From Gammaproteobacteria bacterium (GTDB taxonomy: Bacteria; Pseudomonadota; Gammaproteobacteria; Ga0077536): 46,024 nt of DNA. The notes beneath the pieces are model-generated. The model was not told the DNA's origin, ran no database searches, and saw only the letters and a program-made list of their open reading frames with translations. The stretch's first letter is position 1. Each line of letters opens with the position of its first letter. Of the stretch, positions 7,324-44,360 are shown piece after piece. The stretch lies in contig JAIEQK010000027.1 in assembly GCA_019747795.1 (NCBI GenBank), forward strand, positions 1 through 46,024. Direction: 5' to 3'. A program made the translations under genes and the position numbers.

Positions 7324-7340
7324 GCGCCTGCCGCCTGCGC

Positions 7341-7377: not shown

Positions 7378-7380
7378 AGC

Positions 7381-8840: not shown

Positions 8841-8842
8841 CG

Positions 8843-18288: not shown

Positions 18289-18309
18289 GGCTTCGAGCTC
18301 CGTCTACGT

Positions 18310-25488: not shown

Positions 25489-26391
25489 TCACGGGGTGGC
25501 CACTTCGATGGGGCCGCCGTGACCGAACTCGGCCGTCGGCTTCGCGCCCCAGTAATCGATCGACTCCAGGGTCATGGGCAGACGGCGCGGCGCGCGCGGC
25601 CCGTCCTCTGGAAAGAGTTCCATGCCGAAGCTGTATTCCAGCGTGAGGCCGTCCGGGTCGAGGAAGTACAGGAAGATAGACTCCGACGGCGGATGGCGCC
25701 CCGGCCCGAACACCACCGGCACATTCATCGCCTTGGCGCGGTACAGCGCGCGACCGATGTCGTCGATGTCGGTCACCATGAAATTCACGTGGTGGAGGCG
25801 GTTGGCGTCGGCATTGCTGAGGCCGAGAGAATGGTGCAAGGGATTCGGAAAGCAGCGCATGAAGGTCACTGCGCCGTCGATGCGATCCGACACGCGGTAG
25901 TTCAGTGCTTCAATGAAGAATCTCTCGGTCTCGGCGTGGGTGCGGGTGCCGAGCACCACGTGGCCGAGCCGTACGATCTGGGTGACCGTGGGCGTGAAAG
26001 GCGTGGCGGCGGTGGCGAACGCGTCCAGGTACTCGAAGGTCGCGCCGGTGTTGGGCTCGGTGATGCGGAACGCGCGTCCCATGCCGCGCGCCGCGCAGTA
26101 CTCGCCGTCCATGTCGCGCACCGCGAGGCCGAGGCCGCGCAGGTGATGACGCAGCCGGTCGAGATCCTCCGGCGAGGCCATCTGCCAGCCGACGCGCTTG
26201 AGTCCCGCCTGCGGCGCCTCGCACAGCACCAGGTCATGATGGCGTGCGCTGCAGCGGTAGAGGTGCTCGCCTGCCAGCTCGCCGGCAGGCATGAGCCCGA
26301 GCATGCCGGTGTAGAAGGGCTGCGAGCGCGCGTGGTCGGTGACGTTCAGCGCGACATAGGCGAGCCGTCGGTAGCGGAAGTCCAGGGCCAT
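25489..26391 (-). CDS. Extradiol ring-cleavage dioxygenase (BphC-like, VOC fold)
   Basis: This is a 300-residue type I extradiol dioxygenase of two vicinal-oxygen-chelate domains. The Fe(II) ligands appear to be His144 (RLGHVVLG), His201 (LHHVNF) and Glu252 (LTLEYS). A His in PLHHSLGL (186 or 187) matches the catalytic acid-base His of BphC. It cleaves a catechol-type ring next to one hydroxyl. The gene follows the Rieske dioxygenase beta subunit after 9 nt and precedes a dehydrogenase, so ring hydroxylation and cleavage are encoded together. Substrate specificity cannot be read. Confidence 0.92.
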   Translation of the reverse strand: MALDFRYRRLAYVALNVTDHARSQPFYTGMLGLMPAGELAGEHLYRCSARHHDLVLCEAPQAGLKRVGWQMASPEDLDRLRHHLRGLGLAVRDMDGEYCAARGMGRAFRITEPNTGATFEYLDAFATAATPFTPTVTQIVRLGHVVLGTRTHAETERFFIEALNYRVSDRIDGAVTFMRCFPNPLHHSLGLSNADANRLHHVNFMVTDIDDIGRALYRAKAMNVPVVFGPGRHPPSESIFLYFLDPDGLTLEYSFGMELFPEDGPRAPRRLPMTLESIDYWGAKPTAEFGHGGPIEVATP

Positions 26392-26400
26392 GGTGACGCC

Positions 26401-26898
26401 TCAGGGAATGATGCTGACCTTACCCTGATCGCGGATGTCGTCCTGATCGAGGAAGGTCTTCTTGCTCAAGATGCGCAGCGCGCCGTCGACCCGCGTCATC
26501 TCGTAGAGATGGTGGCCGAAGAAGGTGTCGGTCACACCGAGCTTGCTGCGCCACGTGACGAAATTGGAAGTGAGCGTGAAGCGCGCCGCATCGCCTTCGA
26601 CCACCCGCACGTTGCTGACCAGGCGCCGGCAGCGCGAACGCGGAAACTCGGCGTGCGCGGTGCGCTTCTTGAGGCGCTTCACCCGCTCGCACAGGCGATG
26701 GTAGTCGTCGGCCACGTAGAACAGGCTCGTGCTCGGGTCGGCATCGTCTTCGGCGCCGGCCGGCGGAATGAAGTAGCGCGCGCCCTCCACGAACAGAGCC
26801 AGCCACTCGTCCAGCCGCCAGGCATCGAGCAGCGCCGCCTCGGCGTAGAGAAAGTCCTCCAGTTCGTCACGGGTCGCGCCCACGCTCGCCGCGTTCAT
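26401..26898 (-). CDS. Aromatic-ring-hydroxylating dioxygenase beta subunit
   Basis: This is a 165-residue NTF2/SnoaL-fold beta subunit of a Rieske dioxygenase, the normal length. DELEDFLYAEAALLDAWRLDEWLALF is split across the conserved first helices, and RSRCRRLVSNVRV and TSNFVTWRSK match the family core. It stabilises the alpha3beta3 complex. The ATG at 26898 overlaps the alpha-subunit TGA (ATGA), indicating coupled synthesis; an in-frame ATG at 26928 is less likely. Confidence 0.9.
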   Translation of the reverse strand: MNAASVGATRDELEDFLYAEAALLDAWRLDEWLALFVEGARYFIPPAGAEDDADPSTSLFYVADDYHRLCERVKRLKKRTAHAEFPRSRCRRLVSNVRVVEGDAARFTLTSNFVTWRSKLGVTDTFFGHHLYEMTRVDGALRILSKKTFLDQDDIRDQGKVSIIP

Positions 26899-28163
26899 GG
26901 CGTCGCCCTCGTCACGCGCCGATGCCACTCGCGCCAGAAGGCGCGCATCTGCGCCTCGTCGTCGACCTGCGGCTCATCGCTCAGGTAGCCCTTGGAGATG
27001 TCGTTCCAGCCCTCGCCGCCCACGCTGCCGTAGCCGCGCTGGCAGAGCGCCAGCGCCTCGCAATCGTCCGGCGTGGCGAAGCCGCCGGGGCCCAGGAACT
27101 CGAGGAAGTTGAACAGGCGCAGTTCGCGCATGCGCGCCGACTCGCCGCGCGGCGCCAGCGCCCAGGCATTCACCACCTGCCGGTCCGGCGCGGTCGGATA
27201 GAAGGTGCGCAGGGTCACGGCCATGATGTCGTTCACGACCAGGTTGGGAAAGATGAGCAGGTTGCGATTGGTGGTGGCCATGCGCTCGGCGCGCTCGGGC
27301 CCGAAGCGTTCCACCAGCCGCGCCTTGGTGGCCGCCACCTCGCGCACGGCGTCTTCGCCCCAGGCCGGCACGCTCTGCGCGATGGGTCGACCCCAGGGCG
27401 CGGTGTACTGCACCACCGCGTGGCCATTGCCAAGATCGAAGGCCTGGCCCCTGATCGCGATTTCCACCAGCGCGCCGGGCTTGGACTTCACGTAGTCGAA
27501 GTAGCTGACGTGGGTCGGCAGACCGTGATAGCCGTCGAAGCTGTTCTCGCAGAGCAGCTTCCAGTTCGCCTCGAAACCGTACTCCTGGGTGCCGCCGACG
27601 ATCTCCATGCCGGCCTCACCCTGGTCCAGCACCAGGTCCAGGTACTCGCGCGCGCCGCCGAGGTAGGTGGGCAGGTCCACGCCCTGGCCCTTGAAGTGCA
27701 CGAACCACAGGCCGCGGTACTGCGCGAGGCGCGGCACCGGCACGAGGTCGTGCAGGCCGCCGGCGCGCGTGCCCGCGCCATAGGCTTCGTCGCCCGGGCG
27801 GTTGACCAGGCGACCTTCCAGATCGAAGGCCCAGGAATGGTAGAAGCAGCGGAACATCGCGCCATTGCCGGCGCGCTCGCGACACACCAGCGCGCCGCGA
27901 TGCGGGCAGGTGTTGAAGAAACAGCGCGCCTGCCCGTCCTTGCCGCGCACGAACAAAAGATCGCGGCCCGCGACCCGGCGTGCGAGGAAATCACCGTTGG
28001 CCTCGAGTTCGGATTCGTGGGCGAGGTACAGCCAGGCGTCGTCGAAGATGGCCTGCCGCTCGCGGGTGAGCACTTCGTCGCTGGTGAAGGCGCGGCGCGC
28101 GACGCGGAACAGGCCGCGTTCGCGATCGTCCTCGAGCAGGGGCGGCGCTGGGCTGACGGACAT
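26895..28163 (-). CDS. Aromatic-ring-hydroxylating dioxygenase alpha subunit (Rieske)
   Basis: This is a 422-residue catalytic subunit that adds dioxygen to an aromatic ring. The Rieske [2Fe-2S] ligands are Cys86, His88, Cys106 and His109 (CPHRG ... CFYHSW). The catalytic iron site is the ENSFDGYHGLPTH block with His213 and His218, and Asp210 bridges electron transfer to the Rieske centre. By eye the Rieske region resembles p-cumate-type enzymes, hinting at a carboxylated aromatic substrate. ATG 28163 is chosen because of GAGGG upstream; ATG 28178 is an alternative. It is the first gene of a five-gene operon and is divergent from a TetR regulator. Confidence 0.93.
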   Translation of the reverse strand: MSVSPAPPLLEDDRERGLFRVARRAFTSDEVLTRERQAIFDDAWLYLAHESELEANGDFLARRVAGRDLLFVRGKDGQARCFFNTCPHRGALVCRERAGNGAMFRCFYHSWAFDLEGRLVNRPGDEAYGAGTRAGGLHDLVPVPRLAQYRGLWFVHFKGQGVDLPTYLGGAREYLDLVLDQGEAGMEIVGGTQEYGFEANWKLLCENSFDGYHGLPTHVSYFDYVKSKPGALVEIAIRGQAFDLGNGHAVVQYTAPWGRPIAQSVPAWGEDAVREVAATKARLVERFGPERAERMATTNRNLLIFPNLVVNDIMAVTLRTFYPTAPDRQVVNAWALAPRGESARMRELRLFNFLEFLGPGGFATPDDCEALALCQRGYGSVGGEGWNDISKGYLSDEPQVDDEAQMRAFWREWHRRVTRATP

Positions 28164-28326
28164 GGTGGCTGCCCTCATGGCGGATTCAGAAACCGTGTGG
28201 TTGGTTTGTTTTTGAAAGCTACAGGGCGAGAAGGGCAAAGTAAACCCTCATTAATCCCAGATATCCGAGCGATGACCGGAGCATCACCGACCGGTTACAC
28301 TGTTTTTGAATCTAAGCCAACAAGCC
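28164..28326. promoter_or_regulatory. Divergent control region of the dioxygenase operon and tetR gene
   Basis: For the minus operon, TTTACT and TAGCTT spaced 17 nt form a plausible sigma70 promoter (around 28219-28247). For tetR, ATGACC (28272) and TACACT (28296) are spaced 18 nt. The decamer TGTTTTTGAA occurs twice in the same orientation, at 28207-28216 and 28301-28310. A short inverted repeat ACCGG/CCGGT flanks 28280-28290 inside the tetR promoter. These are candidate operator sites for the TetR protein. Confidence 0.5.
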
Positions 28327-28986: not shown

Positions 28987-29054
28987 ACCAGACAAATGCG
29001 GCGTCGCGCCGCCATTCATCACAGGACGCGGCCGATGCCGCTTGGGGAGACGAG

Positions 29055-30227
29055 ATGGGACTCAGCTTCGCGGAGATCAAGGCGGCCTACGAGCGCGAAC
29101 AGGCGCAGGCGGGCAAGGTGTGGCACAAGGAGCAGATTCCGCTCGCCTGGGATTTCATCACCCCTGAATGGCTGAGCGACGCGCTGATCGGCGCGGGCAA
29201 GGCCGAGAAGATTGTCGGCTACCGGCTCGATGAGCGCGACGAAGGCACCGCCAGCCGGCGCCGCATCTTCCTGGAGTACAACGCCGCTGGTCAGGCCGCG
29301 GGACTGCCGGCCACGGTATTCGGCAAGTCCACCCAGCACCTCGAGAACCGCTTCATCATCGGCATGAACGGCGGCATCGAGGCCGAGGTCACGTTCTACC
29401 AGGCGGTACGTCCGAAGCTCGACATCGAGGCGCCGCGCGCGCTCTTCGCCCGCTTCGACGCGAGTTCGCTGAACTCCATCATCCTGCTGCACGACATGCG
29501 CGATGAAGTGACGTTCTGTCCCTACGACCAGCCCATGACGCTCGAGCTCGCGAAGAGCCAGATGCGCGTACTGGCGACGCTGCACGCGGCCTACTACCAG
29601 AGCCCCGAACTCACCACCACGCTCGCCCCCTGGAACACCTGGGAAGACTACTTCGCCATCACCGCCAAGGAGGCCGGCTTCGAACAGGCCTGCCAGCGCG
29701 GCTTCGCCGAGGCGCGCGACGTGGTGCCGCCGGCGCTGTTCGCCCACGAGGCCGAGATCTGGCCGGCGACGGTCGAGGCCATCGCGCTGCATTCGCGGCT
29801 GCCGCGCATGCTGGTGCACTCCGACGTGCATCTGAAGAACTGGTACGTGGCGGCGCCGGATCGCATGGGGCTGACTGACTGGCAGTGCTCGTGCAAGGGC
29901 CACTGGAGTCGCGATCTGTCCTACTGCATCTCCACCGCGCTGACCGTCGAACAGCGGCGCGCCTGGGAGAAGGAACTGCTCACCTATTACCTCGAGTTGA
30001 TGCACGCCAAGGGCGTGCCGGCCATCGCCTTCGACGACGCCTGGCTCGCCTACCGCGCGCAGATGTTCCCCGCGCTCGCCTGGTGGACCGGCACGCTCGG
30101 CCAACCGCCGGAGGCACCGGCCATGCAGCCGCGCGCCGCGAGCCTGACCTTCATCGAGCGCATGGCCAACGCCGTGCACGACCTGGACTCGCTGCGCGCG
30201 GTGCGCGAAGCCCAGGCGCGCTTCTGA
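29055..30227 (+). CDS. Aminoglycoside-phosphotransferase/EcKinase-like kinase
   Basis: This is a 390-residue protein kinase-like small-molecule kinase. The catalytic loop is HSDVHLKNWY (His255, Asp257, Asn262) and the metal-binding Asp is Asp275 in LTDWQ, replacing the usual DFG/DWE. The middle region LLHDMRD resembles the hinge. The layout is closer to the ecdysteroid-kinase-like branch than to the two other kinases in this window. GGGGAG precedes the ATG. It starts 68 nt after tetR and 7 nt before the next kinase gene, so the three are probably one transcript. The substrate is unknown. Confidence 0.85.
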   Translation: MGLSFAEIKAAYEREQAQAGKVWHKEQIPLAWDFITPEWLSDALIGAGKAEKIVGYRLDERDEGTASRRRIFLEYNAAGQAAGLPATVFGKSTQHLENRFIIGMNGGIEAEVTFYQAVRPKLDIEAPRALFARFDASSLNSIILLHDMRDEVTFCPYDQPMTLELAKSQMRVLATLHAAYYQSPELTTTLAPWNTWEDYFAITAKEAGFEQACQRGFAEARDVVPPALFAHEAEIWPATVEAIALHSRLPRMLVHSDVHLKNWYVAAPDRMGLTDWQCSCKGHWSRDLSYCISTALTVEQRRAWEKELLTYYLELMHAKGVPAIAFDDAWLAYRAQMFPALAWWTGTLGQPPEAPAMQPRAASLTFIERMANAVHDLDSLRAVREAQARF

Positions 30228-30234
30228 GCTGGCC

Positions 30235-31428
30235 ATGCCCGGGTTCGACAAGGACAGGCCGTCGGCGGACGCCATCGCGTGGCTCCGCGCGCGCTTCAGC
30301 TGCGAGCCGGAGATCGACCGCATCCTGACGCGCAAGCTCGAGCAGCGCGCCGGGCCGGGTTATCGACGCTCGAACCTCGCCGAGCTGGTCGGCGCCACGG
30401 AAGCACTGATCCGCGCGCGTCACGGCGCCGACTGCCACATCAGCGATGCGCGCTGGCTGACCGGGGGCGTCTCCAAGCTCCAGTTCGCCTTCACCCTCAC
30501 CTGGACCCCGCCGGCGGGCGTCGTCGCGCGCTCGCCCATGGTGCTGCGCATGGAGTCGGCGGAATCGCTGGTGGAGACCAGCCGCGTGCGCGAGTTCGAG
30601 ATCCTGCATGCACTCCAAGGTGTCGTGCCCGTCCCGCCGGTCTACTGGCTGGACGCGCGCGGGGAATTCCTGCCCTACCCCGCCATCGTGTGCGGCTTCA
30701 TGCCCGGCGTGACCAAGCCGCGCGATGCCACCAGCCAGGCGAGCGGCATGGGTACGCGCCTCGCCGCGCGCTGGCGCGACGCGCTCGGGCCGCAGTTCCT
30801 GACCGCGCTCGCGCGCATCCACGGCCACGCGCCGGCGCTGAACGCATTGCCGAGCTTCGTCCGCCCGCCGCCAGGCACGACGGCGCTCGATCTCGATCTC
30901 GACCACTGGGAACGCGTGTGGGAGGAAGACGCCGACGAGGACGTGCCGCTGATGCGCTTCGCCATGGCCTGGCTGCGCGCGCATCGGCCTGTGTGCGAGC
31001 GGCCCGTGCTGCTGCACGGCGACTATCGCATGGGCAATTTCCTCTTCACCGAAGAGGACGCGCGCATCACCGCGATCCTCGACTGGGAGATGGCGCGCTT
31101 CGGCGATCACCATTTCGATCTCGCCTGGGTCAGTCACCCGGCCTACGGCGCGCTGGCCGAGGACGGCCGCACGCGCCTGGTGGCGGGACTGATGGAGGAA
31201 GCCGAGTTCTTCGCGCGCTACGAGGCCGAGACCGGCCTCGCGGTCGACGCGCGACGGCTGCACTACTACCGCGTGCTGGCCGGCTACGTGCAGGGCACGC
31301 TCGCGCTCGCCTGCGCGTGGCGCGCGGCGCGCAACGGCAAGACCCACCAGGACGCGCTGGCCGCCTGGATCGTCGGCATCGGCCCGCGCCTGCTCGGCGA
31401 ACTGCGCGACCTGCTGGACGCCGCCTGA
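30235..31428 (+). CDS. Aminoglycoside-phosphotransferase-like kinase (ACAD10/LvaA-type)
   Basis: This is a 397-residue kinase of the APH family. The glycine-rich N-lobe loop is LTGGVSKLQF, the catalytic motif is HGDYRMGNF (His261, Asp263, Asn268) and the metal-binding Asp283 is in ILDWEMA. It resembles the kinase domains of ACAD10/ACAD11 and the LvaA kinase of Pseudomonas, which phosphorylate 4-hydroxyacyl-CoA. Length and motifs match the product of 33948-35138, a paralogue. The next gene, 10 nt away, encodes a small helical protein related to the one near that paralogue, suggesting a kinase-partner pair. Confidence 0.85.
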   Translation: MPGFDKDRPSADAIAWLRARFSCEPEIDRILTRKLEQRAGPGYRRSNLAELVGATEALIRARHGADCHISDARWLTGGVSKLQFAFTLTWTPPAGVVARSPMVLRMESAESLVETSRVREFEILHALQGVVPVPPVYWLDARGEFLPYPAIVCGFMPGVTKPRDATSQASGMGTRLAARWRDALGPQFLTALARIHGHAPALNALPSFVRPPPGTTALDLDLDHWERVWEEDADEDVPLMRFAMAWLRAHRPVCERPVLLHGDYRMGNFLFTEEDARITAILDWEMARFGDHHFDLAWVSHPAYGALAEDGRTRLVAGLMEEAEFFARYEAETGLAVDARRLHYYRVLAGYVQGTLALACAWRAARNGKTHQDALAAWIVGIGPRLLGELRDLLDAA

Positions 31429-31438
31429 GGAGCACACC

Positions 31439-31957
31439 ATGCAACTGCGTGACGATTTGTGCCTGGACAGCGCCGTGCGCACGCTGGCCGACATCGTGCG
31501 GCCGGCGGTCGACGCCGCCGACGTGCATGCGCGCGAACAGCTGGAGGTGGTCATCGGCCTCCTGTCGCTGATGCGCGAACGGCAGGCGCTCGCCTGGCGC
31601 TACGACCTCGACGAGCTTTCGCGCCTGCTGGACTTCGGCGGCGCGCTCGCCGCGCTCGACGCGCGCGGCGCGGAGGGTCCGCTGCGGACGCTCGCGGCGC
31701 TGGGCGACGATGTCCTGCGCCGCGCGCAGGCAGGCCCCGATGAAGTGCGGCAGGCGTCGCGCGCGCTGCGCGAGGCGAGCGGCGCGCTGGCGGCGGCGCT
31801 CTACGCGGACGGCGAGCCTGAACTACGCGCGCGCGTGCAGCGCCTGGTGCTGGACCACGCCGCCGAACAGCTCACCCGCGAACGTGCCTGGTTCGCACCG
31901 CAGGGCTGGGAACTCGATCCCGCCGCCCTGCCGCCCATCGACGAACTGCTGAAATGA
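31439..31957 (+). CDS. Small helical protein paired with kinase (family A)
   Basis: This is a 172-residue, mostly helical, probably cytoplasmic protein with no signal peptide and no known catalytic motif. It shows similarity by eye to the 170-residue product of 32771-33283 along the first 70 residues (AVRTLADIVRP against VMKALAEVILP; then WRYDLDELSRLLDF against LRYELESLDECLEL). It follows an APH-like kinase by 10 nt. In Pseudomonas the LvaA kinase needs a small partner, LvaB; this protein may have the same job. Homology to LvaB is not shown here. Confidence 0.75.
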   Translation: MQLRDDLCLDSAVRTLADIVRPAVDAADVHAREQLEVVIGLLSLMRERQALAWRYDLDELSRLLDFGGALAALDARGAEGPLRTLAALGDDVLRRAQAGPDEVRQASRALREASGALAAALYADGEPELRARVQRLVLDHAAEQLTRERAWFAPQGWELDPAALPPIDELLK

Positions 31958-31963
31958 GCGCGC

Positions 31964-32731
31964 TCAGAAGCCGATGTGCGCGCCGCCGTCGATGGAGAGA
32001 TGCTGCCCGGTGATGTAGCTCGCGCCGTCGGACAGCAGGAAGCAGCACGGCGTCGCCACTTCGTCCGGCTGCGCGATGCGTGCCATCGGAATGCCGGCCA
32101 TGGTGCGCTCGATGAACTTGGGGCTGCGGATGACTTCGGTCATGGGCGTCTCCACCGCGCCGAAGCACACGCTGTTCACGCAGATGCCGAGGCGCGCCCA
32201 CTCGCGCGCCGCGCTCATGGTGATGCCGAGCACGCCGGCCTTGGCCGCGCCATAGTTGATCTGCCCGATGGTCCCGCGCCGCCCGGCGATGGACGACACG
32301 TTGACGATGCGCCGCGGCGCCGTGTCGCCCGCCTCGCAGCGTTCCAGCATGTGCCGCCCCACCGCCTGAAGGCAGTTGAACACGCCTGACAGATTCACAT
32401 CGATCACCGCCTGCCAGTCGGCCAGCGACATCTTGTGGATCATCGCCGTGCGGATGATGCCGGCGTTGTTGAACAGGCCGTTGACGTCGCCGTGGCGCGC
32501 AACCACGTCCGCCACCATCTGCTGCACGAAGCCCGGATCGGCCACGCTGCCGACGTGCACGCTGTGCGGTCCGCCCAGTTCGGCGGCGGTCGCCTTCACG
32601 CCGTCGCCGTTGAGATCGACCAGCGCGAGCGTCGCGCCGAGCGCCGCGGCCTTGCGCGCCACGCCCTGGCCGATGCCCTGGGCCGCGCCGGTGATGATGA
32701 TGACGCGGCCGTTCAGATTCATGGGGTTCAT
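31964..32731 (-). CDS. Short-chain dehydrogenase/reductase
   Basis: This is a 255-residue classical SDR. TGAAQGIGQG is the cofactor-binding motif, LFNNAG follows, and the active site is Ser in NVSSIAG plus YGAAK. The C-terminus SIDGGAHIGF is typical. It oxidises or reduces a hydroxyl or keto group with NAD(P). It lies between two small-protein genes and two APH-like kinases. By analogy with the Lva pathway, where an SDR-type reductase supplies a 4-hydroxyacyl-CoA, it may make or use the kinase substrate; that is inference. AGGAG precedes the first ATG. Confidence 0.87.
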   Translation of the reverse strand: MNPMNLNGRVIIITGAAQGIGQGVARKAAALGATLALVDLNGDGVKATAAELGGPHSVHVGSVADPGFVQQMVADVVARHGDVNGLFNNAGIIRTAMIHKMSLADWQAVIDVNLSGVFNCLQAVGRHMLERCEAGDTAPRRIVNVSSIAGRRGTIGQINYGAAKAGVLGITMSAAREWARLGICVNSVCFGAVETPMTEVIRSPKFIERTMAGIPMARIAQPDEVATPCCFLLSDGASYITGQHLSIDGGAHIGF

Positions 32732-32770
32732 CTTGGCTCTTCTCCTGCTCGAGTGTTCGGATCGCGACCG

Positions 32771-33283
32771 TCAGCCGCGGTCGAAGAAATCCTGGAAGCG
32801 CGGCAGGCGCGGCCCGTCCGGGTCGAGCCCGCTGGCGCGATGCCAGCTGCGCTCACGCGGCGCGCGGCGCGCGTTGTAGCGCAGCACGGCACCGAGCACG
32901 GCTGCGGAGAGCGGCGTCTCGCCCTCGCCATCGGCGAGCGCGTGGTCGATGGCCGCCTTCACCGCGTGCAGCGCGGCGCCGACCGCGGCGTAGTCGTCGC
33001 GCATGAGACGCTTCGCCCGCGCGACGCTGTCGATCAGCGCCGCGGCCAGGGATGGATCGCGCACCTGGGGCGCCAGCGCGCTCGCGAGTTCCAGGCATTC
33101 GTCGAGACTCTCGAGTTCGTAGCGCAGCGCGTAGGGCCACTGCTCGGCGAGCAGGGCGAGATGGCCGAGCGCGAGGTGCGTCTGGTCGCGCGCCATGCGC
33201 TGCTCGGGCGGCAGCGCCGGCAGGATGACCTCGGCCAGCGCCTTCATCACGGACTTCAGACGGAGATCCAGGTCGGGGTTCAT
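32771..33283 (-). CDS. Small helical protein paired with kinase (family A, second copy)
   Basis: This is a 170-residue protein related to the product of 31439-31957. It is helical, has no signal peptide, and its only Cys is in DECLEL. The C-terminus is RSWHRASGLDPDGPRLPRF, aligning with the RAWFAPQGWELDPAALPPI end of the other copy. It lies 39 nt after the SDR start on the same strand and upstream of it in transcription. An OsmC gene separates it from the third kinase gene. The repeat pairing with kinases supports a partner role; there is no direct evidence of function. Confidence 0.75.
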   Translation of the reverse strand: MNPDLDLRLKSVMKALAEVILPALPPEQRMARDQTHLALGHLALLAEQWPYALRYELESLDECLELASALAPQVRDPSLAAALIDSVARAKRLMRDDYAAVGAALHAVKAAIDHALADGEGETPLSAAVLGAVLRYNARRAPRERSWHRASGLDPDGPRLPRFQDFFDRG

Positions 33284-33316
33284 AGGGAGACCTCTCTCTC
33301 CTGCCCGTGCTGCGCG

Positions 33317-33820
33317 CTACACGCGGCGGACGTCGATGGTCGTCGGTACGGGGGTCGAGAGCATGTCCAGCACCGGGCAATGACCGTTGACCACGGCGAC
33401 CAGGCGGTCGACGTCCGCCTGGCTCGCCGTCGAGCCAAGCGCGACCTGCACGCGCAGGCGCTGGAAGCCCGGGCGGATGGTCTCGTCGATCGCGAAGAAG
33501 CCACGGAAGTCGATGTCGCCCTCGACGGTCACCGCGACGCTGTCGAGCGGTATGCCGAGCGCGGTGGCGAAGGCCCGGTAGGTGATCTCCTGGCAGGTGC
33601 CGAGTGCGGCAAGGACCAGTTCCACCGGCGTCGGGCCGGCGTCGCTGCCGCCGATGCCGTGCGGCTCGTCGACCGTCAACGCGTGGTCGCGAATGCTCAC
33701 CGCCGAGCGGAAACCGTCTCCGAGCCGCGAGGCGGAGACGAAGGTGCGCTGCGCGGACTTTGCTTCACTGCGGAATGACTCTGCTGTGGCCGCGATGGTC
33801 GCGGCGAGACTCTCGCTCAT
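33317..33820 (-). CDS. OsmC family protein
   Basis: This is a 167-residue OsmC/Ohr-fold protein. Two cysteines in GTCQEITY and NGHCPVLDML occupy the positions of the peroxidatic and resolving cysteines of the OsmC family, which reduces organic hydroperoxides or protects against stress. It lies between the second small protein and the third kinase on the same strand. Its role may be to remove peroxides produced during ring oxygenation, an inference from context. Confidence 0.85.
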   Translation of the reverse strand: MSESLAATIAATAESFRSEAKSAQRTFVSASRLGDGFRSAVSIRDHALTVDEPHGIGGSDAGPTPVELVLAALGTCQEITYRAFATALGIPLDSVAVTVEGDIDFRGFFAIDETIRPGFQRLRVQVALGSTASQADVDRLVAVVNGHCPVLDMLSTPVPTTIDVRRV

Positions 33821-33947
33821 GTGCGTGGTCCCTCGAAGACTGGGGTGGGCATGGTCTTGCGCGCTGCCGCTCTGCGCAAGACCCGCGCGGTATTGAGTCC
33901 GAGGCCCTGGGGCAAGGGGCCCTCCACCTGGTGCGCACGGACGGATT

Positions 33948-35138
33948 TCATCGTCCCACCTCGCGCAACAGTTCGCCGAGCTGGTCCATGAACACCGCCG
34001 AGCCGAATGGCATCCAGGTCAGCACCAGGTCCTGGTGGCTCTGCCCGCGCAGCGCGGCGCGGCTCGCCGTGGCGTTGTTGATGATGATGCACTTCCAGGC
34101 GTTCAGGATCTCGTAGTAGCGGATGATGTCGAGATCGACGGTCACGCCGGCGGCCTCGGCATAGGCGGCGAAGAACTCGTCGCGCGGCAAGAGCCCTGAG
34201 ATCAGCAGTTCACCGTCCTCGCGCGGCACGCCGAACAGGCGCTGCACGCTCCAGGCGAGGTCCTCATGGAAATCGCCCAGGTGCGCGAGTTCCCAGTCCA
34301 GCACCGCACTGAATGCGCCGTCCGGCTCGGTGAACATGAAGTTGCCGATGCGGTAGTCGCCGTGCACCACCACCGGGTCCGCGCAGACCGGCGCGTTCTC
34401 CCGCAGCCAGCGCTCGACCAGCGTGACCAGCGGCTCGCGTTCGACCACGTCGTCGCGCCATACCCGCGACCACCAGTTCACCTGGCGCAGTGCCGCCTGT
34501 GTAGTGCCCGGCGCGGGGGCATCGAAATAGGACAGGTCGCAGCAGCGCCAGTCGAGCGCGTGGATGCGCGCGAGATTGGCGACGAACTGCGGCGCGAGCT
34601 TCGCCGTCCAGTGCTCGAAGCGGATGCCGACGCCGGTGACCGCCTTGGCCGCGACGTCGCTGGGCGCGGTGACGCCGGCAACGAAGCGCGTGACGAGCCC
34701 TGGCTGACCGAGATGTTCGCCGTCGGCGTCGACCGCGTGCAGCGGCGGCACCGGCACCACGCCGGCATAGGCCGCGAGCAGCTGCGCTTCACGTCCGCGG
34801 CAGGTCTCGACGATGCCCATCCAGGGATCCATGCGCAGCACCAGGCGCTCCGGCGCGGCGCTCGCGGCGTGCTCGAGGGTGAAGACGAACTGTTCCTTGG
34901 AGGCGCCACCGGTCATGCGCGCCAGCGCGCTGATGCGCACCTCGCGACAGCCGCGCACGCTGTACAGGCGCGCGAGCTGTGACGCGACCTGCTCGTTGCT
35001 GCGCGCGGCGTAGGGCCCGAGGTCGCGGCGCGCGAGCTTGCGCGCCAGTACGTGGGCGATGCGCGGCTCCAGGTCGTCGCGATCCCAGGGGTCGACGCGC
35101 GGTGGCGCCCCCGAAGCGTCAGAGCTTGCCGGCGGCAC
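33948..35138 (-). CDS. Aminoglycoside-phosphotransferase-like kinase (ACAD10/LvaA-type), second copy
   Basis: This is a 396-residue kinase paralogous to the product of 30235-31428: N-lobe loop MTGGASKEQF, catalytic HGDYRIGNF (His259, Asp261, Asn266) and Asp281 in LDWELAHLGD. It starts with GTG at 35138, 20 bases inside the end of the upstream gene, so the two are translationally coupled. It is followed by OsmC and small-protein genes. Expected substrate: a hydroxyacyl-CoA or related alcohol, by analogy with ACAD11 and LvaA; not proven. Confidence 0.85.
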   Translation of the reverse strand: MPPASSDASGAPPRVDPWDRDDLEPRIAHVLARKLARRDLGPYAARSNEQVASQLARLYSVRGCREVRISALARMTGGASKEQFVFTLEHAASAAPERLVLRMDPWMGIVETCRGREAQLLAAYAGVVPVPPLHAVDADGEHLGQPGLVTRFVAGVTAPSDVAAKAVTGVGIRFEHWTAKLAPQFVANLARIHALDWRCCDLSYFDAPAPGTTQAALRQVNWWSRVWRDDVVEREPLVTLVERWLRENAPVCADPVVVHGDYRIGNFMFTEPDGAFSAVLDWELAHLGDFHEDLAWSVQRLFGVPREDGELLISGLLPRDEFFAAYAEAAGVTVDLDIIRYYEILNAWKCIIINNATASRAALRGQSHQDLVLTWMPFGSAVFMDQLGELLREVGR

Positions 35139-36123
35139 GCAGGCGCAGCACCGTGTCCCAGAACCACCCTTCCTGCACTTCGCCGTAGCCGACGCGGCCG
35201 CTGTCGCTCACGTAGCGATTGAGCACGTTCGGCACGCCGCAGCAGCCGTAGGGTTCCCACAGGCCCGAGGCAACGGGCGTGCCCGTCGCCTGGTGCGTCA
35301 CGCCGCGCTCGTCGGTCAGGCTGACGTCGTAGCGCGTCCCCCACATACCGTCGCGCTGCACGGTGACCTTGCCGCCGGTGCAGCCATGCACCTGTCCATC
35401 CTGCAGCACGAAGCCGTGGGCGAAGGTGTGCTGGGCGTCGTCGGCGGCGGTGTAGTCCATCGACCAGATCGCGTGCATACCGTAGTCCTCGCCGAAGATC
35501 GCGTGCTGCCAGGCCATGGGCGCGAGGCCGCGCTCTGGCCGCACGCCCCAGGAGCGATCCATGCAATCCACGTAGTCGATGGCGAAGCGCTCGCCGCGCA
35601 GCACGAGCTCGCCGCGGATCCGCACCAGCTGGTCGTAGTGTCCCCCATAGGCTGCCCCGAAGCCGGAGTGCGCGGTGCTCGCCGCCTGGCTCTTGCGCGT
35701 CACCGGATCCATGCTCGCGTCGTGGATGTCGTAGGCCGGCATGATCGCCCGCGCATCGAGTTCGAAACGCGTGTCATCGACGCCGACGTAGCTCAGGCGG
35801 TAGCGGTCCGGGCCTTCCTCGAGATCCGCCGACAGGCCGCTCGGGAGACTGAACTTGCGGAAGTCCACGGGCGCCGGCAGTTGATGCTGGCTGTCGGAAT
35901 AGAGCGCGTCGAAGCGCGCGCGGCCGAGACCGCGGTAGATCTTGATGTCGCAGGTGACAACGCCGAGCCCGGGTCGCGCGAGCAGGTAGGCGCTGCCGAA
36001 CAGGCCGAGATCCGGCACCGCGAAGGGCATGTAGAAGGTCTCGGCCCAGCTGTGGCGATTGCTGGCGTCGGTCAGCGCCGCCATCGCCTCGGGGTGATAG
36101 CGCATGTCCTGGTTGGTGATCAT
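35119..36123 (-). CDS. Uncharacterised protein, probably beta-rich
   Basis: This is a 334-residue soluble protein whose family I cannot name with confidence. Segments rich in Trp and Gly, such as YVDCMDRSWGVRPERG, AIWSMDYTAADD and WEPYGCCGVPN, alternate with beta-like stretches, suggestive of a lipocalin/CrtC-like fold. No signal peptide is seen. GGAG lies 9 nt before the ATG; a start at 36174 is less likely. It overlaps the kinase gene by 20 bases and follows the reductase gene after 22 nt, so the three are probably one operon. It may bind or modify the pathway substrate. Confidence 0.7.
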   Translation of the reverse strand: MITNQDMRYHPEAMAALTDASNRHSWAETFYMPFAVPDLGLFGSAYLLARPGLGVVTCDIKIYRGLGRARFDALYSDSQHQLPAPVDFRKFSLPSGLSADLEEGPDRYRLSYVGVDDTRFELDARAIMPAYDIHDASMDPVTRKSQAASTAHSGFGAAYGGHYDQLVRIRGELVLRGERFAIDYVDCMDRSWGVRPERGLAPMAWQHAIFGEDYGMHAIWSMDYTAADDAQHTFAHGFVLQDGQVHGCTGGKVTVQRDGMWGTRYDVSLTDERGVTHQATGTPVASGLWEPYGCCGVPNVLNRYVSDSGRVGYGEVQEGWFWDTVLRLRAAGKL

Positions 36124-36145
36124 CGCAAGGGTCTCCGGTGGCGGC

Positions 36146-37222
36146 TCAGCCGAGTTCCTGGCGCGAGAGCCCATGGCTCGCGTCGAGGAACTTGTCGAAG
36201 TGGATGTTGTTCGGCGCGACGCCGAGTTCAGTCAGCACCGGCAGGGCGGCATCGATCATCGGCGGCGGACCGCAGAGATAGGCTTCGGTGTCGTGGGTCA
36301 TGAGCGCCGCGGCGGCGGCAGCGACCTGCGCGGTGACGAGGCCGCGCGCGCCCTGCCACTCGGCGTCGTCCTCGGCGGCGGACAGCACGGGCACGTAGCT
36401 GAAACCGCCGTTCCAGCGTGCGGCGAGGGCGGTGATCCGTTCCTGCGCGTAGAGATCGGCCTGCGTGCGCGCGCCGAACAGCAGCACGCAGTTGCGCCCG
36501 ACGTTGCGCGCGGCGGCGGCGTCCAGCATCGACAGGAGCGGCGCGAGTCCACTGCCGCCGGCGATGCAGATCATGGGCGCGCGGCTCTCGCGCAGCCAGA
36601 AGTTGCCGGCCGGGCCGTGGGCGTGCAGTGTCACGTTGTCCAGGTGACCGGCGAACAGCAGTTCGGTGAGTTGGCCCTCCGGCACGCGGCGCACGTAGAG
36701 CTCGACCTGCCGCGCGCCCTCGGGCGGCGGCGGGGATGCGAAAGAATAGGCCCGCGCGCCGAACACCGCGTCGGTGGCGAGCTGCACGTACTGGCCGCCG
36801 TCGAAGGCCATGGGGCGGTCGAACTCGAGCGTCACCTGCTGGATGTCGTGGGTGAGCGCGACGCGCTTCACGATGCGCGCGGTGTAGTCGCCCGCCGGAT
36901 GCAGACGCTTGCTCTCGAAGCCCGGCACCTCGAGCACCACGTCGGTCTTGGCCGCGGCCTGACAGGCGAGGACGACGTTGGAACGCAGCTCCTCGGCCGA
37001 GAGCACGTAGGCGAAATTGGTGATCTCGCGAATCTTGCCGCTCTTCAACCGACACTTGCACGAGCCGCAGGTACCGACCGTGCAGCTGTGCGGAAAGGCG
37101 ATGCCCTGGGCGAGCGCCGCTTCCAGGATCGACTGTCCGCGTTCCACCGCGAAGCTGACGCCCGCCGGTTCGACGCTCACCTGTGCGACGCGCTGACCGA
37201 AGAGCGCGGTCCAGATCCCCAT
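36146..37222 (-). CDS. Ferredoxin-NAD(P)H reductase component of an oxygenase
   Basis: This is a 358-residue reductase with an N-terminal plant-type [2Fe-2S] domain (Cys47, Cys52 and Cys55 in SCTVGTCGSCKC; Cys87 in VVLACQ), then an FAD-binding domain (ARAYSFASPP) and an NAD-binding domain (ICIAGGSGLAPLLSML, AYLCGPPPMI). It moves electrons from NAD(P)H to an oxygenase. No other reductase is visible here, so it is a candidate partner for the Rieske dioxygenase 9 kb away. GGGGAGGG precedes the ATG at 37222. An ATAGTA-type operator overlaps its promoter. Confidence 0.92.
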   Translation of the reverse strand: MGIWTALFGQRVAQVSVEPAGVSFAVERGQSILEAALAQGIAFPHSCTVGTCGSCKCRLKSGKIREITNFAYVLSAEELRSNVVLACQAAAKTDVVLEVPGFESKRLHPAGDYTARIVKRVALTHDIQQVTLEFDRPMAFDGGQYVQLATDAVFGARAYSFASPPPPEGARQVELYVRRVPEGQLTELLFAGHLDNVTLHAHGPAGNFWLRESRAPMICIAGGSGLAPLLSMLDAAAARNVGRNCVLLFGARTQADLYAQERITALAARWNGGFSYVPVLSAAEDDAEWQGARGLVTAQVAAAAAALMTHDTEAYLCGPPPMIDAALPVLTELGVAPNNIHFDKFLDASHGLSRQELG

Positions 37223-37298: not shown

Positions 37299-37349
37299 CC
37301 CGCCGGCACGCATGGGTGCCCGGCGTTCGCGCGAGGTGGATTGAGGCAC

Positions 37350-38906
37350 ATGTGGGTCTATCGCGAAATTCGCACCTTGGGCGACTACGTGGACTACCAC
37401 GCCGCGCGCCGCGGCAGCGGCACCGCGCTGGTGTTCGGTGAGCACGTCACCACCTACGCCGAACTGGCGGGCGAGACTTGGCGGGTCGCGCGCGGGCTCG
37501 AGGCCGCCGGCGTGCCGCGCGGCGCGCGGGTGGTGTATCTCGGCAAGAACTCCGACGACTTCTTCGTCGCGCTGTTCGGCACGGCCAAGCACGGCGGTTG
37601 CTTCTGCCCACTCAACTGGCGCCTGTCGACGCCGGAACTCGCGCGCGTGCTGGCTGACGCGGCGCCGGCCTTCGCCTTCGTCGAAGCGGAGTACGCGGCG
37701 GAGTGGGAAACGCTCGGCGCGCAGGTGCCGACCGTGCTGGTGGACCGCGCACGCGGCGAGGATGACCCTTTTCGTCGCTGGCTCAGCCTGCAGGACGACG
37801 CGCCGCTGCCGCCGGTCGCGATGGAAGCCGGCGCAATCCAGCTCTACACCTCGGGCACCACGGGCGATCCCAAGGGCGTGGTCATCAGCCACGACAACTT
37901 CAACCACATGCGGCTCTGCGAGCATTTCGAGCCGGCCTACGAATGGCTGCCGGACGATCGCTTCCTGGTCGCGCTGCCGAACTTTCACCTGCTCGCCATC
38001 GGTATCTCGCTGCAGGCCGTGTACAACGGCATGGCAGTCTTGATCGAGCGCCTGTTCGAGCCCGGCGCGGTGCTGCATTCGATCGCGACCCGCCGGCCGA
38101 CACTCACGGTGTTCGCGCCCGCCATGCTGCAGATGCTGCTCGATCACGCCGACGCGGCGCGGACCGATTTCAGCTCGCTGCGCCTCACCATGTACGCGGG
38201 CTCGCCCATCTCGCTCGGGCTCATCAAGCGCTGCATCGCCGCCATGCCCTGCCAGTTCATGCAGTTCTACGGGGCGACGGAGACCTCGGGCGCGGTCACG
38301 CTGCTGCGTCCCGCCGAGCACGATCTCGAGCACGAGGACAAGCTCAAGTCCTGCGGGCGTCCGCTGCCGCTCATCGATCTCCGCATCGTCGACGAGCAGG
38401 GCCGCGACGTACAGGACGGCCAGCCGGGCGAACTGTGGATCCGCTCACCGGCGCTCGCAAGCGGCTACTGGAACAAGCCTGAAGTCACCGCCCAGGCATT
38501 CACACAAGGCTGGTACAGGAGCGGTGACATCGCGATCCGCGACGCCGAAGGCCTGTACTACATCCACGATCGCCTGAAGGACATGATCGTCTCGGGGGGC
38601 GAGAACATCTACTCCACCGAAATAGAGTCGGTGCTCTCGACCCATCCCGCGGTCGCCGCGGTGGCCGTGATCGGCGTGCCCGACCCGCGCTGGGGCGAAG
38701 CGGTCAAGGCCTGCGTGGTGCTGAAGCCGGGCGCGAGCGCCGACGCCGACGAGCTGCTCGAGTACTGTCGCCCGCGTCTCGCCGGCTACAAGCTGCCGAA
38801 GAGCATCGATTTTCACACCGCCTTCCCCATGACGGGGTCCGGCAAGATCGCCAAGCGGGCGTTGCGGGCGCCCTTCTGGAGCGGCGAGGATCGGTCGGTC
38901 GCCTGA
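37350..38906 (+). CDS. Acyl-CoA synthetase (AMP-forming ligase)
   Basis: This is a 518-residue ANL-superfamily ligase that activates a carboxylic acid to its CoA thioester via an acyl-adenylate. The P-loop is YTSGTTGDPKG, the A5 motif YGATETSG, the A7 motif YRSGDIA, the hinge/A8 segment KDMIVSGGENIYSTEIE, and the catalytic Lys is in GSGKIAKRALR. It is likely the entry step of the alicyclic or aromatic acid pathway. The ATG at 37350 is supported by a GAGG stretch upstream. The gene shares an operator with the MarR-controlled acyl-CoA dehydrogenase operon. Confidence 0.92.
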   Translation: MWVYREIRTLGDYVDYHAARRGSGTALVFGEHVTTYAELAGETWRVARGLEAAGVPRGARVVYLGKNSDDFFVALFGTAKHGGCFCPLNWRLSTPELARVLADAAPAFAFVEAEYAAEWETLGAQVPTVLVDRARGEDDPFRRWLSLQDDAPLPPVAMEAGAIQLYTSGTTGDPKGVVISHDNFNHMRLCEHFEPAYEWLPDDRFLVALPNFHLLAIGISLQAVYNGMAVLIERLFEPGAVLHSIATRRPTLTVFAPAMLQMLLDHADAARTDFSSLRLTMYAGSPISLGLIKRCIAAMPCQFMQFYGATETSGAVTLLRPAEHDLEHEDKLKSCGRPLPLIDLRIVDEQGRDVQDGQPGELWIRSPALASGYWNKPEVTAQAFTQGWYRSGDIAIRDAEGLYYIHDRLKDMIVSGGENIYSTEIESVLSTHPAVAAVAVIGVPDPRWGEAVKACVVLKPGASADADELLEYCRPRLAGYKLPKSIDFHTAFPMTGSGKIAKRALRAPFWSGEDRSVA

Positions 38907-40326: not shown

Positions 40327-41124
40327 TCAGCGATAGAACTTCATGAAGTCCGGCTCGCGCTTCTCGTTCAGCGCCTTCACGCCTTCCTGCGACTCCTCGG
40401 TGTAGTAGTAGAGCCTCAACGCCTGCATGGCGAGCTGGCCCATGCCGCGGATGGACTCGGTGTCGGCGTTGAAGCTCTTCTTGGCGAGCGCGATGGCGGT
40501 CGGACTGCGCTTGTTGATTTCGTCGCACCAGCTCTGCACCGCCTCGTCGAGTTCGGCGTCCGGGTACACAGCGTTGATGAGGCCCATGTCCAGCGCTTCC
40601 TTGGCGCTGTAGCGCTTGCACATGTACCAGATTTCGCGCGCCTTCTTCTCGCCCACCACGCGGGCCAGGTAGGCGGTGCCGAAGCCCGGGTCCACCGAGC
40701 CCATCTTCGGGCCAACCTGGCCGAAGATCGCGTTGTCCGAGGCAATGGTCATGTCGCACAGCGTGGCGAACACGTTGCCGCCGCCGATGGCGTAGCCGCG
40801 CACCTTGGCGATCACCGGCTTCGGGATGTCGCGCAGCACGGAATGGAATTCCTCCACCGGCATGCCGACCGCGCCGCGCGCGTCGTTGTTGCCGTACTGG
40901 CCGCCCTGGTGATCGGACTGGTCACCGCCGGTGCAGAAGGCCTTGCCGCCCGCGCCGGTGAAGATGATCGAGCCGATGTCCTTGTCCCAGCCGGCGAGCT
41001 GGAAGGCGTCCAGCAGCTCGACGATGGTGCGCGGGCGAAACGCGTTGTACTTGGCCGGGCGGTTGATGGTGATGGTCGCGGTGCGGCCATTACGTTCGAA
41101 GATGATGTCCTGGTAGTCGCTCAT
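40327..41124 (-). CDS. badI: BadI-like 2-ketocyclohexanecarboxyl-CoA hydrolase
   Basis: This is a 265-residue crotonase-fold hydrolase closely resembling BadI of Rhodopseudomonas, which opens the ring of 2-ketocyclohexanecarboxyl-CoA to pimelyl-CoA. Shared blocks include AFCTGGDQS, YAIGGGNV, FGQVGPKMGSVDPG, VVGEKKAREIWYMCKRYS and SREGVKAL-type EESQEGVKALNEKR. The ATG at 41124 lies within a longer open frame that overlaps the next gene; the shorter start fits the family. It follows badH-like, as in the known operon. Confidence 0.88.
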   Translation of the reverse strand: MSDYQDIIFERNGRTATITINRPAKYNAFRPRTIVELLDAFQLAGWDKDIGSIIFTGAGGKAFCTGGDQSDHQGGQYGNNDARGAVGMPVEEFHSVLRDIPKPVIAKVRGYAIGGGNVFATLCDMTIASDNAIFGQVGPKMGSVDPGFGTAYLARVVGEKKAREIWYMCKRYSAKEALDMGLINAVYPDAELDEAVQSWCDEINKRSPTAIALAKKSFNADTESIRGMGQLAMQALRLYYYTEESQEGVKALNEKREPDFMKFYR

Positions 41125-42046: not shown

Positions 42047-43183
42047 TCAGATGGCGCGGCTGATCAGCTCCTTCATGATCTCGGAGGAGCCGCCGTAGAT
42101 GCGCTGGATGCGCGTGTCCTTCCACAGCCGCGCGATCTCGTACTCGTTCATGTAGCCGTAGCCGCCGAAGAGCTGCACGCAGGCGTCGGTCACCTCGGAG
42201 CGGAGCTCGGTGTGGAACAGCTTGGCGGACGCCGCCTGGTCGGTGGTGAGCTTGCCCTGCAAGAGCGCCGCGATGCAGGCGTCGAGGTGCGTCCAGCCGA
42301 CCTGCAGCTTGGTGCGGAGATCGGCCAGCACGAAGCGCGTGTTCTGGAATTCCAGCAGCGTGTGACCGAAAGCCTGGCGCTGCTTCACGTAGTCGACGGT
42401 CAGATCGTAGGCGCGCTGCGCGGCGGAGTGGGCCGTGACGGCGATGGACATGCGCTCCTGCGGCAGCTCCTGCATCATCAGCACGAAACCCTGGTTCTCC
42501 GCGCCGAGCAGGTAGTCGGCGGGCACGCGCAGGTCGTCGAAGAAGATCTCGGCCACGTCCGAAGAATGCTGCCCGACCTTGTCGAGCTTGCGTCCGACCT
42601 TGTAGCCCGGCCGGTCGGTCTCGCAGAAGAAGAGCGAGATGCCCTTGGCGCCGGGCTCGGCGCCGGTGCGCGCGGCGATGACCGCGATGTCGGCCGTGAC
42701 GCCGTTGGTGATGAAGGTCTTGGCGCCGTTGATGCGCCAGCCATCGCCCTCGCGGACGGCTGTCGTGCGGATGGCCTTGAGATCCGATCCCCCGCCCGGC
42801 TCGGTCATGCAGATGCAGGCGATGGCCGAGCCGTCGACCATGCGGGGAATCCAGGTGCGACGCAGGTCTTCCTGGGCGTACTTCAGAAGGTAGTGCGCGA
42901 CGATGTCGGAATGCACGCCGAAGGCCGGCGTCGCCGAACCGGTGTAGGAGGTCTCCTCCAGCACGATGGCATTGGCGCGGAAATCGAGGCCCGCGCCGCC
43001 GTAGGCCTCGGGCATGTCCGGGCACAGGATGCCCTGCGCGCCGCAGGCCCGCCAGAAGTCCTTGTCGACCTGGCCTTGAGCCTCCCAGCGCGGAATGTTC
43101 GGCGTGAGTTCCTGGGCGAAGAAGCGCCGCACGGCCTCGCGGAACTGCTGGTGCTCGGACTCGAACAGGGTGCGAGGCAGCAT
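42047..43183 (-). CDS. Acyl-CoA dehydrogenase (second of the pair)
   Basis: This is a 378-residue FAD-dependent acyl-CoA dehydrogenase. CMTEPGGGSD is the substrate-loop motif and QLFGGYGYMNEYEIAR the late FAD-binding segment. At the medium-chain Glu position it has YGG, but LPQERMSIAV carries a Glu at the alternative catalytic site used by isovaleryl- and long-chain-type enzymes. In the cyclohexanecarboxylate pathway such an enzyme (AliB) introduces the first double bond. The gap to the upstream gene is only 10 nt. Confidence 0.9.
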   Translation of the reverse strand: MLPRTLFESEHQQFREAVRRFFAQELTPNIPRWEAQGQVDKDFWRACGAQGILCPDMPEAYGGAGLDFRANAIVLEETSYTGSATPAFGVHSDIVAHYLLKYAQEDLRRTWIPRMVDGSAIACICMTEPGGGSDLKAIRTTAVREGDGWRINGAKTFITNGVTADIAVIAARTGAEPGAKGISLFFCETDRPGYKVGRKLDKVGQHSSDVAEIFFDDLRVPADYLLGAENQGFVLMMQELPQERMSIAVTAHSAAQRAYDLTVDYVKQRQAFGHTLLEFQNTRFVLADLRTKLQVGWTHLDACIAALLQGKLTTDQAASAKLFHTELRSEVTDACVQLFGGYGYMNEYEIARLWKDTRIQRIYGGSSEIMKELISRAI

Positions 43184-43193: not shown

Positions 43194-44360
43194 TCAGTAG
43201 CTCTTCGGCAGGTCGAGCACCTTCTCGGCGATGAAGGACTTGATCAGTTGCTCGGTGATCGGCGCGATGCGGGTGATGGTGACTTCCCGCAGCAGGCGCT
43301 CGACGTGGTACTCCTTGGCATAGCCGAAGCCGCCGTGGGTGAGCACCGCCTGCAGCGCCGCGTCGTGGCCCGCCTTGGCGCCGAGATACTTGGCCGCGTT
43401 GGCCTCCGCGCCGCAGGGACGGCCGTTGTCGTAGAGCCAGGCAGCCTTCATGGCGATGGTGTAGGCGGCCTCGAGATGCATCCAGTTCTCGGCCAGGGGA
43501 TGCTGGATGCCCTGGTTCATGCCGATGGGCCGGTCGAACACCACGCGTTCGCGCGCGTACTGCGAAGCGCGGCGCAGCGCGTCCTGGCCGACGCCGATGG
43601 CCTCGACCGCGATCAGGATGCGCTCCGGGTTCAGGCTGTGCAGGATGTAGTGGAAGCCCTTGCCCTCCTCGCCGATCAGGTCCTCGTCGGGGATGAACAG
43701 CCCGTCGATGAACACCGCGTTGGAGTCCACCGCCTTGCGCCCCATCTTCGGGATGCGCTTGATCTCCATCTTCGTGCGATCGACGTCGGTGTAGAAGACG
43801 CTGATGCCGTCGGTCGGCCGCTTGCAGTCCTCGAAGCGCGTGGTGCGCGCGAGCAGCATGATCTTGGTCGCCACCTGGCCGGTCGAGGTCCAGACCTTCT
43901 GACCGTTGACCAGGTAGCCGCCGTCGACCTTCTTCGCGAAGGTCTTGATGCGGGTGGTGTTGAGTCCCGCGTCGGGCTCGGTGACGCCGAAGCAGCACTT
44001 GTCCTGGCCGGCGACCAGGCGCGGCACCCAGCGGGATTTCTGCTCATCGGTGCCGAACACCACGATGGGATGGGGCCCGAAGAGATTGATGTGCACGGTC
44101 GAGGCGGCGGCGATGCCACCGCCGTGGCTCGCCACCTCGTGCATCATGATGGCCGCCTCGGTGACGCCGAGGCCGGCGCCGCCGTATTCCTCGGGCATGG
44201 TGATGCCGAGCCAGCCCGCCTCGGCCATCGCGCCATGGAAGGCATGGGGAAACTCGCCATCGTCGTCCCGCGCGAGCCAGTAATCGGCGTCGAAGCGCGA
44301 GACCACGGCGCGCACCGCTTCGCGTATGGCGCGCTGCTGTTCGGTCAGATCGAAATCCAC
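43194..44360 (-). CDS. Acyl-CoA dehydrogenase (first of the pair)
   Basis: This is a 388-residue acyl-CoA dehydrogenase. CFGVTEPDAGLNTTRI is the substrate-loop region and THGGFGYAKEYHVERL the late FAD segment. The putative base Glu lies in LNPERILIAV (alternative position), while the medium-chain site reads APITEQLIK. It is the first gene of the minus-strand operon that includes the second dehydrogenase, badH-like and badI-like. A strong promoter (TTGACA, 17 nt, TACTAT) overlapped by the MarR-type palindrome lies upstream. Confidence 0.9.
   Translation of the reverse strand: MDFDLTEQQRAIREAVRAVVSRFDADYWLARDDDGEFPHAFHGAMAEAGWLGITMPEEYGGAGLGVTEAAIMMHEVASHGGGIAAASTVHINLFGPHPIVVFGTDEQKSRWVPRLVAGQDKCCFGVTEPDAGLNTTRIKTFAKKVDGGYLVNGQKVWTSTGQVATKIMLLARTTRFEDCKRPTDGISVFYTDVDRTKMEIKRIPKMGRKAVDSNAVFIDGLFIPDEDLIGEEGKGFHYILHSLNPERILIAVEAIGVGQDALRRASQYARERVVFDRPIGMNQGIQHPLAENWMHLEAAYTIAMKAAWLYDNGRPCGAEANAAKYLGAKAGHDAALQAVLTHGGFGYAKEYHVERLLREVTITRIAPITEQLIKSFIAEKVLDLPKSY

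Follow-up and report, generated by a model that had tools for sequence, protein, structure and literature searches.

We found two pairs of adjacent or nearly adjacent genes, each coding for an APH-fold kinase and a small helical protein (SP), together with a gene for a DUF7064 protein, in a 46,024-nucleotide stretch of gammaproteobacterial DNA (contig JAIEQK010000027.1). This stretch, hereafter the window, is one whole contig of a 5.9 Mb genome in 331 contigs. The first pair consists of KIN1 (30235..31428, + strand) and SP1 (31439..31957, +; 172 amino acids), and the second of KIN2 (33948..35138, − strand) and SP2 (32771..33283, −; 170 amino acids). The DUF7064 gene (35119..36174, −; Pfam PF23212, E = 5.8e-9) overlaps that of KIN2 by 20 bases. 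We consider it fairly probable that the kinase-SP pairs phosphorylate a hydroxyl group and that the DUF7064 protein, a putative phospho-lyase of the 25-PSL type, removes the phosphate by elimination and so yields an alkene, the net reaction being an ATP-dependent dehydration within a ring-catabolic gene cluster.

In this scheme KIN1-SP1 and KIN2-SP2 would be two-subunit small-molecule kinases, in which an APH-fold catalytic chain is joined by a small all-helical partner whose role is probably to stabilize the kinase or to shape the site for its substrate. Each kinase would phosphorylate the hydroxyl of a hydrophobic, ring-derived intermediate, either free or as its CoA ester. Once the phosphate is eliminated, the alkene would go to hydration or β-oxidation and would be usable by short-chain dehydrogenase, hydratase, and acyl-CoA dehydrogenase steps. 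We infer this reaction and the order of its steps from the gene pairing, a natural fusion, the kinase motifs, the distribution of the genes, and their likeness to 25-HSK and 25-PSL. An earlier note on this DNA had suggested kinase-dependent dehydration or hydroxyl removal; our data support the idea, but the second enzyme is likelier to be the DUF7064 protein, which the note did not mention, than an enzyme of the LvaC type.

The same note had described two paralogous APH-like kinases, two similar small proteins, and a short-chain dehydrogenase gene between them, and all five open reading frames (ORFs) are present at the coordinates it gave. All show a coding-type GC pattern except SP1, which was not listed by the GC filter. 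KIN1 and KIN2 match Pfam APH (E = 2.5e-26 and 2.2e-23, respectively) and are 39% identical to each other, and SP1 and SP2 are likewise mutually related (34% identity, E = 5.9e-13). The intervening dehydrogenase, SDR1 (31964..32731, −), matches PF13561 (E = 2.2e-59). Besides the DUF7064 gene, the note had missed a third kinase gene, KIN3 (~29019..30227, +, start codon approximate), which has no SP partner of its own.

SP1 and SP2 matched none of the families in Pfam or NCBIfam. Weak Pfam matches of SP2 to LAMB1 (E = 0.018) and of another SP to DUF1484 (E = 0.35) were dismissed. An SP profile found chance-level matches among PDB sequences (best E = 0.039). Since no fold match was obtained for SP by itself, the joined kinase-SP model described below being dominated by the kinase, the SP fold cannot be called new.

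The pairing of SP with the kinase is beyond chance: The block is kept in same-genus genomes, and co-occurrence, which the note had put forward as a check, holds widely. Using the kinase alignment alone as bait, we scanned one genome per species across 84,980 species and obtained 75 loci, 70 of which were scored after we dropped overlaps with relatives already collected. An SP gene adjoins the bait kinase in 66 of the 70. Every one of the 83 SP matches has a same-strand kinase within 300 bp, in both kinase-first and SP-first orders, and 12 of the 70 loci have two such pairs. Orthologues of SP1 adjoin orthologues of KIN1 in L031, L032, and L034 (L numbers designate individual loci throughout).

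One contig of a Gemmatimonadota metagenome-assembled genome carries a single-frame fusion of SP and kinase (L107:261-2006), in which the usual start codon of the kinase part is missing. Distances among kinases and among SPs are strongly correlated (r = 0.90 over 71 pairs), although shared inheritance would also produce such a correlation. When aligned with single-domain rows, the natural fusion was misaligned, with kinase N-termini placed onto SP; we therefore modeled instead the KIN1-SP1 orthologue pair of L088 as one joined chain, reading the TGA stop as W and leaving a linker of ~8 residues. AlphaFold2 (AF2) returned a model with pLDDT 85.7 and pTM 0.85 in which SP is all helical. This pTM fits, and favors, a defined arrangement of the two parts, about 0.7 being expected by our own estimate if SP were unplaced; weighing against this, the value was obtained with a short artificial linker, without a non-cognate control or an inter-domain error map. 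From the fusion and the joined model, both of them indirect evidence, we infer that the pairs form a complex.

The catalytic motifs HGDYRxGN and LDWE are intact in KIN1 and KIN2 and, save for single substitutions, in 17 aligned SP-associated kinases. Among PDB sequences, KIN1 is closest to Rv3168 of Mycobacterium tuberculosis (3ats, E = 8.7e-21), followed by 25-HSK (9fsg, 2.6e-16) and ACAD11 (8v3v, 2.4e-9), and the kinase profile matches 25-HSK at 4.2e-25. In structure the two best candidates are tied: The kinase model aligns with 25-HSK (9fsg) at VIA Z 26.1 (root-mean-square deviation [rmsd] 3.4, 321 residues aligned) and with Rv3168 (3ats) at VIA Z 25.8 (rmsd 3.9, 312 aligned). That these three are the nearest solved kinases, and that the window kinases are conserved within catabolic clusters, speaks against their being antibiotic-resistance phosphotransferases located here by chance. 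They do weakly match APH and Mph resistance models, but all matches fall far under the curated cut-offs (45.3 bits for KIN1 and 40.5 for KIN2, vs. 205 for APH(3′)), so that the resistance role, which the note had named as a finding that would overturn its proposal, is scarcely credible.

Structural comparison suggests that the second enzyme of the module is likely the DUF7064 protein, acting as a 25-PSL-type phospho-lyase. Its AF2 model (pLDDT 90.4) has 25-PSL as its top Foldseek match, with E = 3.3e-12 vs. 7e-9 for the next fold relatives, and superposes on it at VIA Z 24.2 (rmsd 2.9, 270 aligned, 19% identity). The sequence match between the two is centered on DRSWGVR, the motif DRSWGxR being common to both. 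Of the 58 proteins that make up three DUF7064 clusters, 54 have the more general pattern D(R/H)SWxxR, which was not seen in any of 927 other ORFs. Among the 55 loci with sufficient flanking sequence, 37 have a DUF7064-type gene no more than 1.5 kb from the kinase.

Several observations weigh against this assignment. At about one third of the loci there is no DUF7064 gene within 1.5 kb, and a fourth DUF7064 cluster, of 13 proteins, is without the D(R/H)SWxxR pattern. The similarity to 25-PSL is weak at the sequence level, where 25-PSL is the sole match of the DUF7064 profile among PDB sequences, with E = 0.42. In structure, AttH (2ich) is within tie range of 25-PSL (Z 23.4, rmsd 3.4, 283 aligned, 13% identity), and the fold also includes hydratases and pericyclases. 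SP and kinase might then cooperate as proposed while the DUF7064 protein, with its CrtC/AttH fold, catalyzes hydration, isomerization, or cyclization instead of acting as a phospho-lyase; AttH, kievitone hydratase, and pericyclases do share this fold (Z 20.9-23.4). We regard this as improbable, because 25-PSL is the best match by both Foldseek E-value and identity (19% vs. 9%-13%) and has DRSWGxR in common with DUF7064.

The precedent for a phospho-lyase pathway comes from the anaerobic degradation of the cholesterol side chain in Sterolibacterium denitrificans, in which 25-HSK phosphorylates tertiary C25 alcohols and a separate lyase removes the phosphate to give an alkene (PMC8449060). The window kinases belong to the same family and fold as 25-HSK, with intact motifs, and the DUF7064 protein has the fold and the DRSWGxR motif of 25-PSL. 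The window differs in having adjacent kinase and lyase-like genes, small partners, and two pairs, and in its setting within a Rieske/extradiol/BadI-like ring pathway. Two features of the sterol system tell against too close a parallel: 25-HSK needs no partner for its activity, and in 2021 the gene of its lyase had not been identified, with no candidate nearby (PMC8449060). A similar pair of genes is that of Rv3168 and Rv3169 in M. tuberculosis; KIN1 has no closer solved sequence than Rv3168, and the window DUF7064 protein has a weak match, below the cut-off, to the Rv3169 family (7.4e-7).

The earlier note had compared the window with the LvaA/LvaB/LvaC system of levulinate catabolism in Pseudomonas putida, for which a pull-down of LvaA with LvaB has been reported (PMC6692424). 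The resemblance holds in kind: Both have an APH-fold kinase and a small partner encoded adjacently, with a short-chain dehydrogenase and a CoA ligase nearby, and the Lva system removes the hydroxyl via a phosphate ester, as we propose for the window. On the Lva model, the kinase with an LvaB-like partner would phosphorylate a γ-hydroxyacyl-CoA, and a dehydrogenase of the LvaC/ACAD11 type would then remove the phosphate. We judge this branch unlikely for the window, though it draws some support from other loci, and the evidence concerns first the dehydrogenase and then the small partner.

LvaC and mouse ACAD11 have in common an HCMR helix and a catalytic Asp (PMC12440821). We tested for this signature as R-x7-HCMR plus the catalytic Asp, with Pseudomonas loci as a positive control. 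The two acyl-CoA dehydrogenases of the window, ACAD1 (42047..43183, −) and ACAD2 (43194..44360, −), are without the HCMR stretch and without the catalytic Asp, and their nearest solved relatives (2pg0 and 5lnx, respectively) are ordinary dehydrogenases. Their sequences thus give no support to an LvaC-type step in this window, and the note's identification of them as LvaC equivalents is not borne out. In ACAD10/ACAD11 of animals, the related kinase domain is fused to a signature-bearing dehydrogenase, whereas the window kinases are separate ORFs. The signature is not foreign to kinase-SP loci, however. In four Nevskia-like loci (L090, L093, L094, and L096), kinase-SP, DUF7064, and a second kinase-SP are directly followed downstream by a dehydrogenase of the LvaC type with the full signature, so the products of SP-associated kinases may go to an eliminating enzyme of either kind.

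As for the partner, a DUF6285 gene (PF19802) at the loci of Pseudomonas has an APH kinase on one side and on the other a dehydrogenase whose sequence includes RLAPARLTHCMR and YDGPSEVH, followed by a short-chain dehydrogenase; this gene order supports DUF6285 as the LvaB family. DUF6285 is itself linked to kinases: In the window's own family, essentially all of the loci that we looked at have a DUF6285 protein adjoining an APH kinase or fused with one. A kinase-DUF6285 fusion ORF of ~475 amino acids is kept across that family (L048:9605-11041, with similar ORFs in L051-L067). By direct comparison, the window SPs are not DUF6285. They have no match to PF19802 at E up to 10, profile comparison with hhalign gives a probability of 1%-2%, and the direct alignment score of 18.2 is reached by six of 200 block shuffles. 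The profile comparison with LvaB that the note had called for accordingly shows no direct match.

A distant relationship is plausible from sequence. A third small family, named TP here (L050:6136-6549, −), has a kinase neighbor at all 19 of its loci and aligns to SP (score 30.4) and to DUF6285 (30.9) in the same N-terminal register; for either link, none of 200 block shuffles scores as high. SP would then be distantly akin to DUF6285 through TP, which is a point for the Lva-type branch. The kinases themselves stand apart, since SP-linked and DUF6285-linked kinases form separate groups in a tree of 128 kinases, although support for the SP-side branch is modest (80) and the tree contains some flagged long branches.

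A further alternative is that phosphorylation is a means of protecting or trapping a hydroxylated intermediate that is toxic or volatile, to be reversed by a phosphatase with no elimination. A gene of the tyrosine-phosphatase family is found in 11 of the 70 kinase-SP loci, and a phosphatase gene lies beside the DUF7064, kinase, and SP genes on the annotated plasmids of Sphingomonas MM-1 and Sphingopyxis (see below). Yet family searches identified no such phosphatase in the window, and DUF7064 is a far commoner neighbor than phosphatase; we give this alternative only a very small chance. Examples of the phosphatase genes by kinase-SP modules, all of family PF13350, are L122:9271-10053, L189:12029-12784, and L191:17741-18493; their products perhaps dephosphorylate a stalled intermediate.

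The phospho-lyase scheme that we favor has its setting in a cluster that, from its gene families, looks like a pathway opening an aromatic and an alicyclic ring. Rieske oxygenase (RHO) alpha and beta subunits and an extradiol dioxygenase are encoded at 25489..28238 (−; Pfam Rieske, Ring_hydroxyl_A/B, and Glyoxalase), a CoA ligase at 37341..38906 (+; AMP-binding, E = 2.1e-80), and a BadI/MenB-like member of the enoyl-CoA hydratase family at 40327..41100 (−; NCBIfam badI, E = 1.5e-122). The last is likely an alicyclic ring hydrolase, although its score of 407.9 bits is under the NCBIfam badI cut-off of 467.6. Family searches found further short-chain dehydrogenases, an amidohydrolase, and a BenC-like reductase. 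A gene set resembling an NAD-dependent formate dehydrogenase (15439-20522) adjoins the aromatic cluster.

The order DUF7064, KIN2, SP2, SDR1, SP1, KIN1, KIN3, RHO, extradiol dioxygenase is kept in the same-genus loci L031 and L032, whose SDR1 orthologues are 85% and 83% identical, respectively, to that of the window. In the window an OsmC-like gene (33317..33820, −; Pfam OsmC, E = 1.2e-21) lies between KIN2 and SP2. It is not at that place in L031, L032, or L034, and in L031 the KIN2 and SP2 genes overlap (7245-8429 and 8420-8935) with no gene in between, so the OsmC-like gene is probably not part of the module. KIN3 matches Pfam APH (1.7e-10) and EcKL (1.1e-8), has no sequence match in the PDB, and is kept beside KIN1 in L031 and L032. 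It is in one operon with KIN1, and a distant relative adjoins the three-gene set on the Rhodococcus aetherivorans plasmid (L190:15784-16869).

Within its own class the SP family has a narrow distribution. SP genes occur in 11 of 58 relatives of the window genome, and in an evenly sampled set of 369 genomes from the class, they were found only in members of the window's own family. Across bacteria the module is found in Pseudomonadota, Actinomycetota, Gemmatimonadota, and Myxococcota. DUF7064, kinase, and SP genes stand in a row on plasmids of Sphingomonas sp. MM-1, Rhodococcus aetherivorans, and Sphingopyxis macrogoltabida (confirmed by profile), two of these three annotated plasmids being conjugative. 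Their annotations there read "hypothetical protein" for both DUF7064 and SP and "phosphotransferase family protein" for the kinase. The conjugative plasmid pSA1 of Novosphingobium resinovorum (L192) has four SP genes, four strong kinase matches, several DUF7064 genes, and a phosphatase gene within 33 kb. Near kinase-SP modules, at 16 loci, we also note a family of ~289 amino acids without a significant Pfam match (L130:6222-7091 and homologues), often with a COX3-like protein.

The folds of the parts and a precedent for the chemistry are already known. In the open-licence literature we found no paper naming DUF6285, DUF7064, or DUF7065 and nothing pertinent on this type of kinase in catabolic clusters; it appears to contain no description of the SP family, of the module of SP, kinase, and DUF7064, or of the wide distribution of this module, which is carried in part on plasmids. 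A route of phosphorylation followed by phosphate elimination has so far been shown only for anaerobic sterol side chains. More tentatively, and with slightly more doubt than confidence, we propose that SP, TP, and DUF6285 are one superfamily of partners of APH-fold metabolite kinases and that SP-kinase-DUF7064 is a general, mobile module for the aerobic dehydration of unactivated alcohols in ring and terpenoid-like catabolism.

If the phospho-lyase scheme is right, it would assign a joint, testable function in hydroxyl removal to enzymes whose present annotation is no more than "hypothetical protein" or "phosphotransferase family protein." A specific prediction would follow for the Rv3168 and Rv3169 pair, along with a handle on the role of LvaB-type partners. 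Because it spans four phyla and plasmids, the module may account for a widespread step in the degradation of hydrophobic compounds, both natural products and pollutants.

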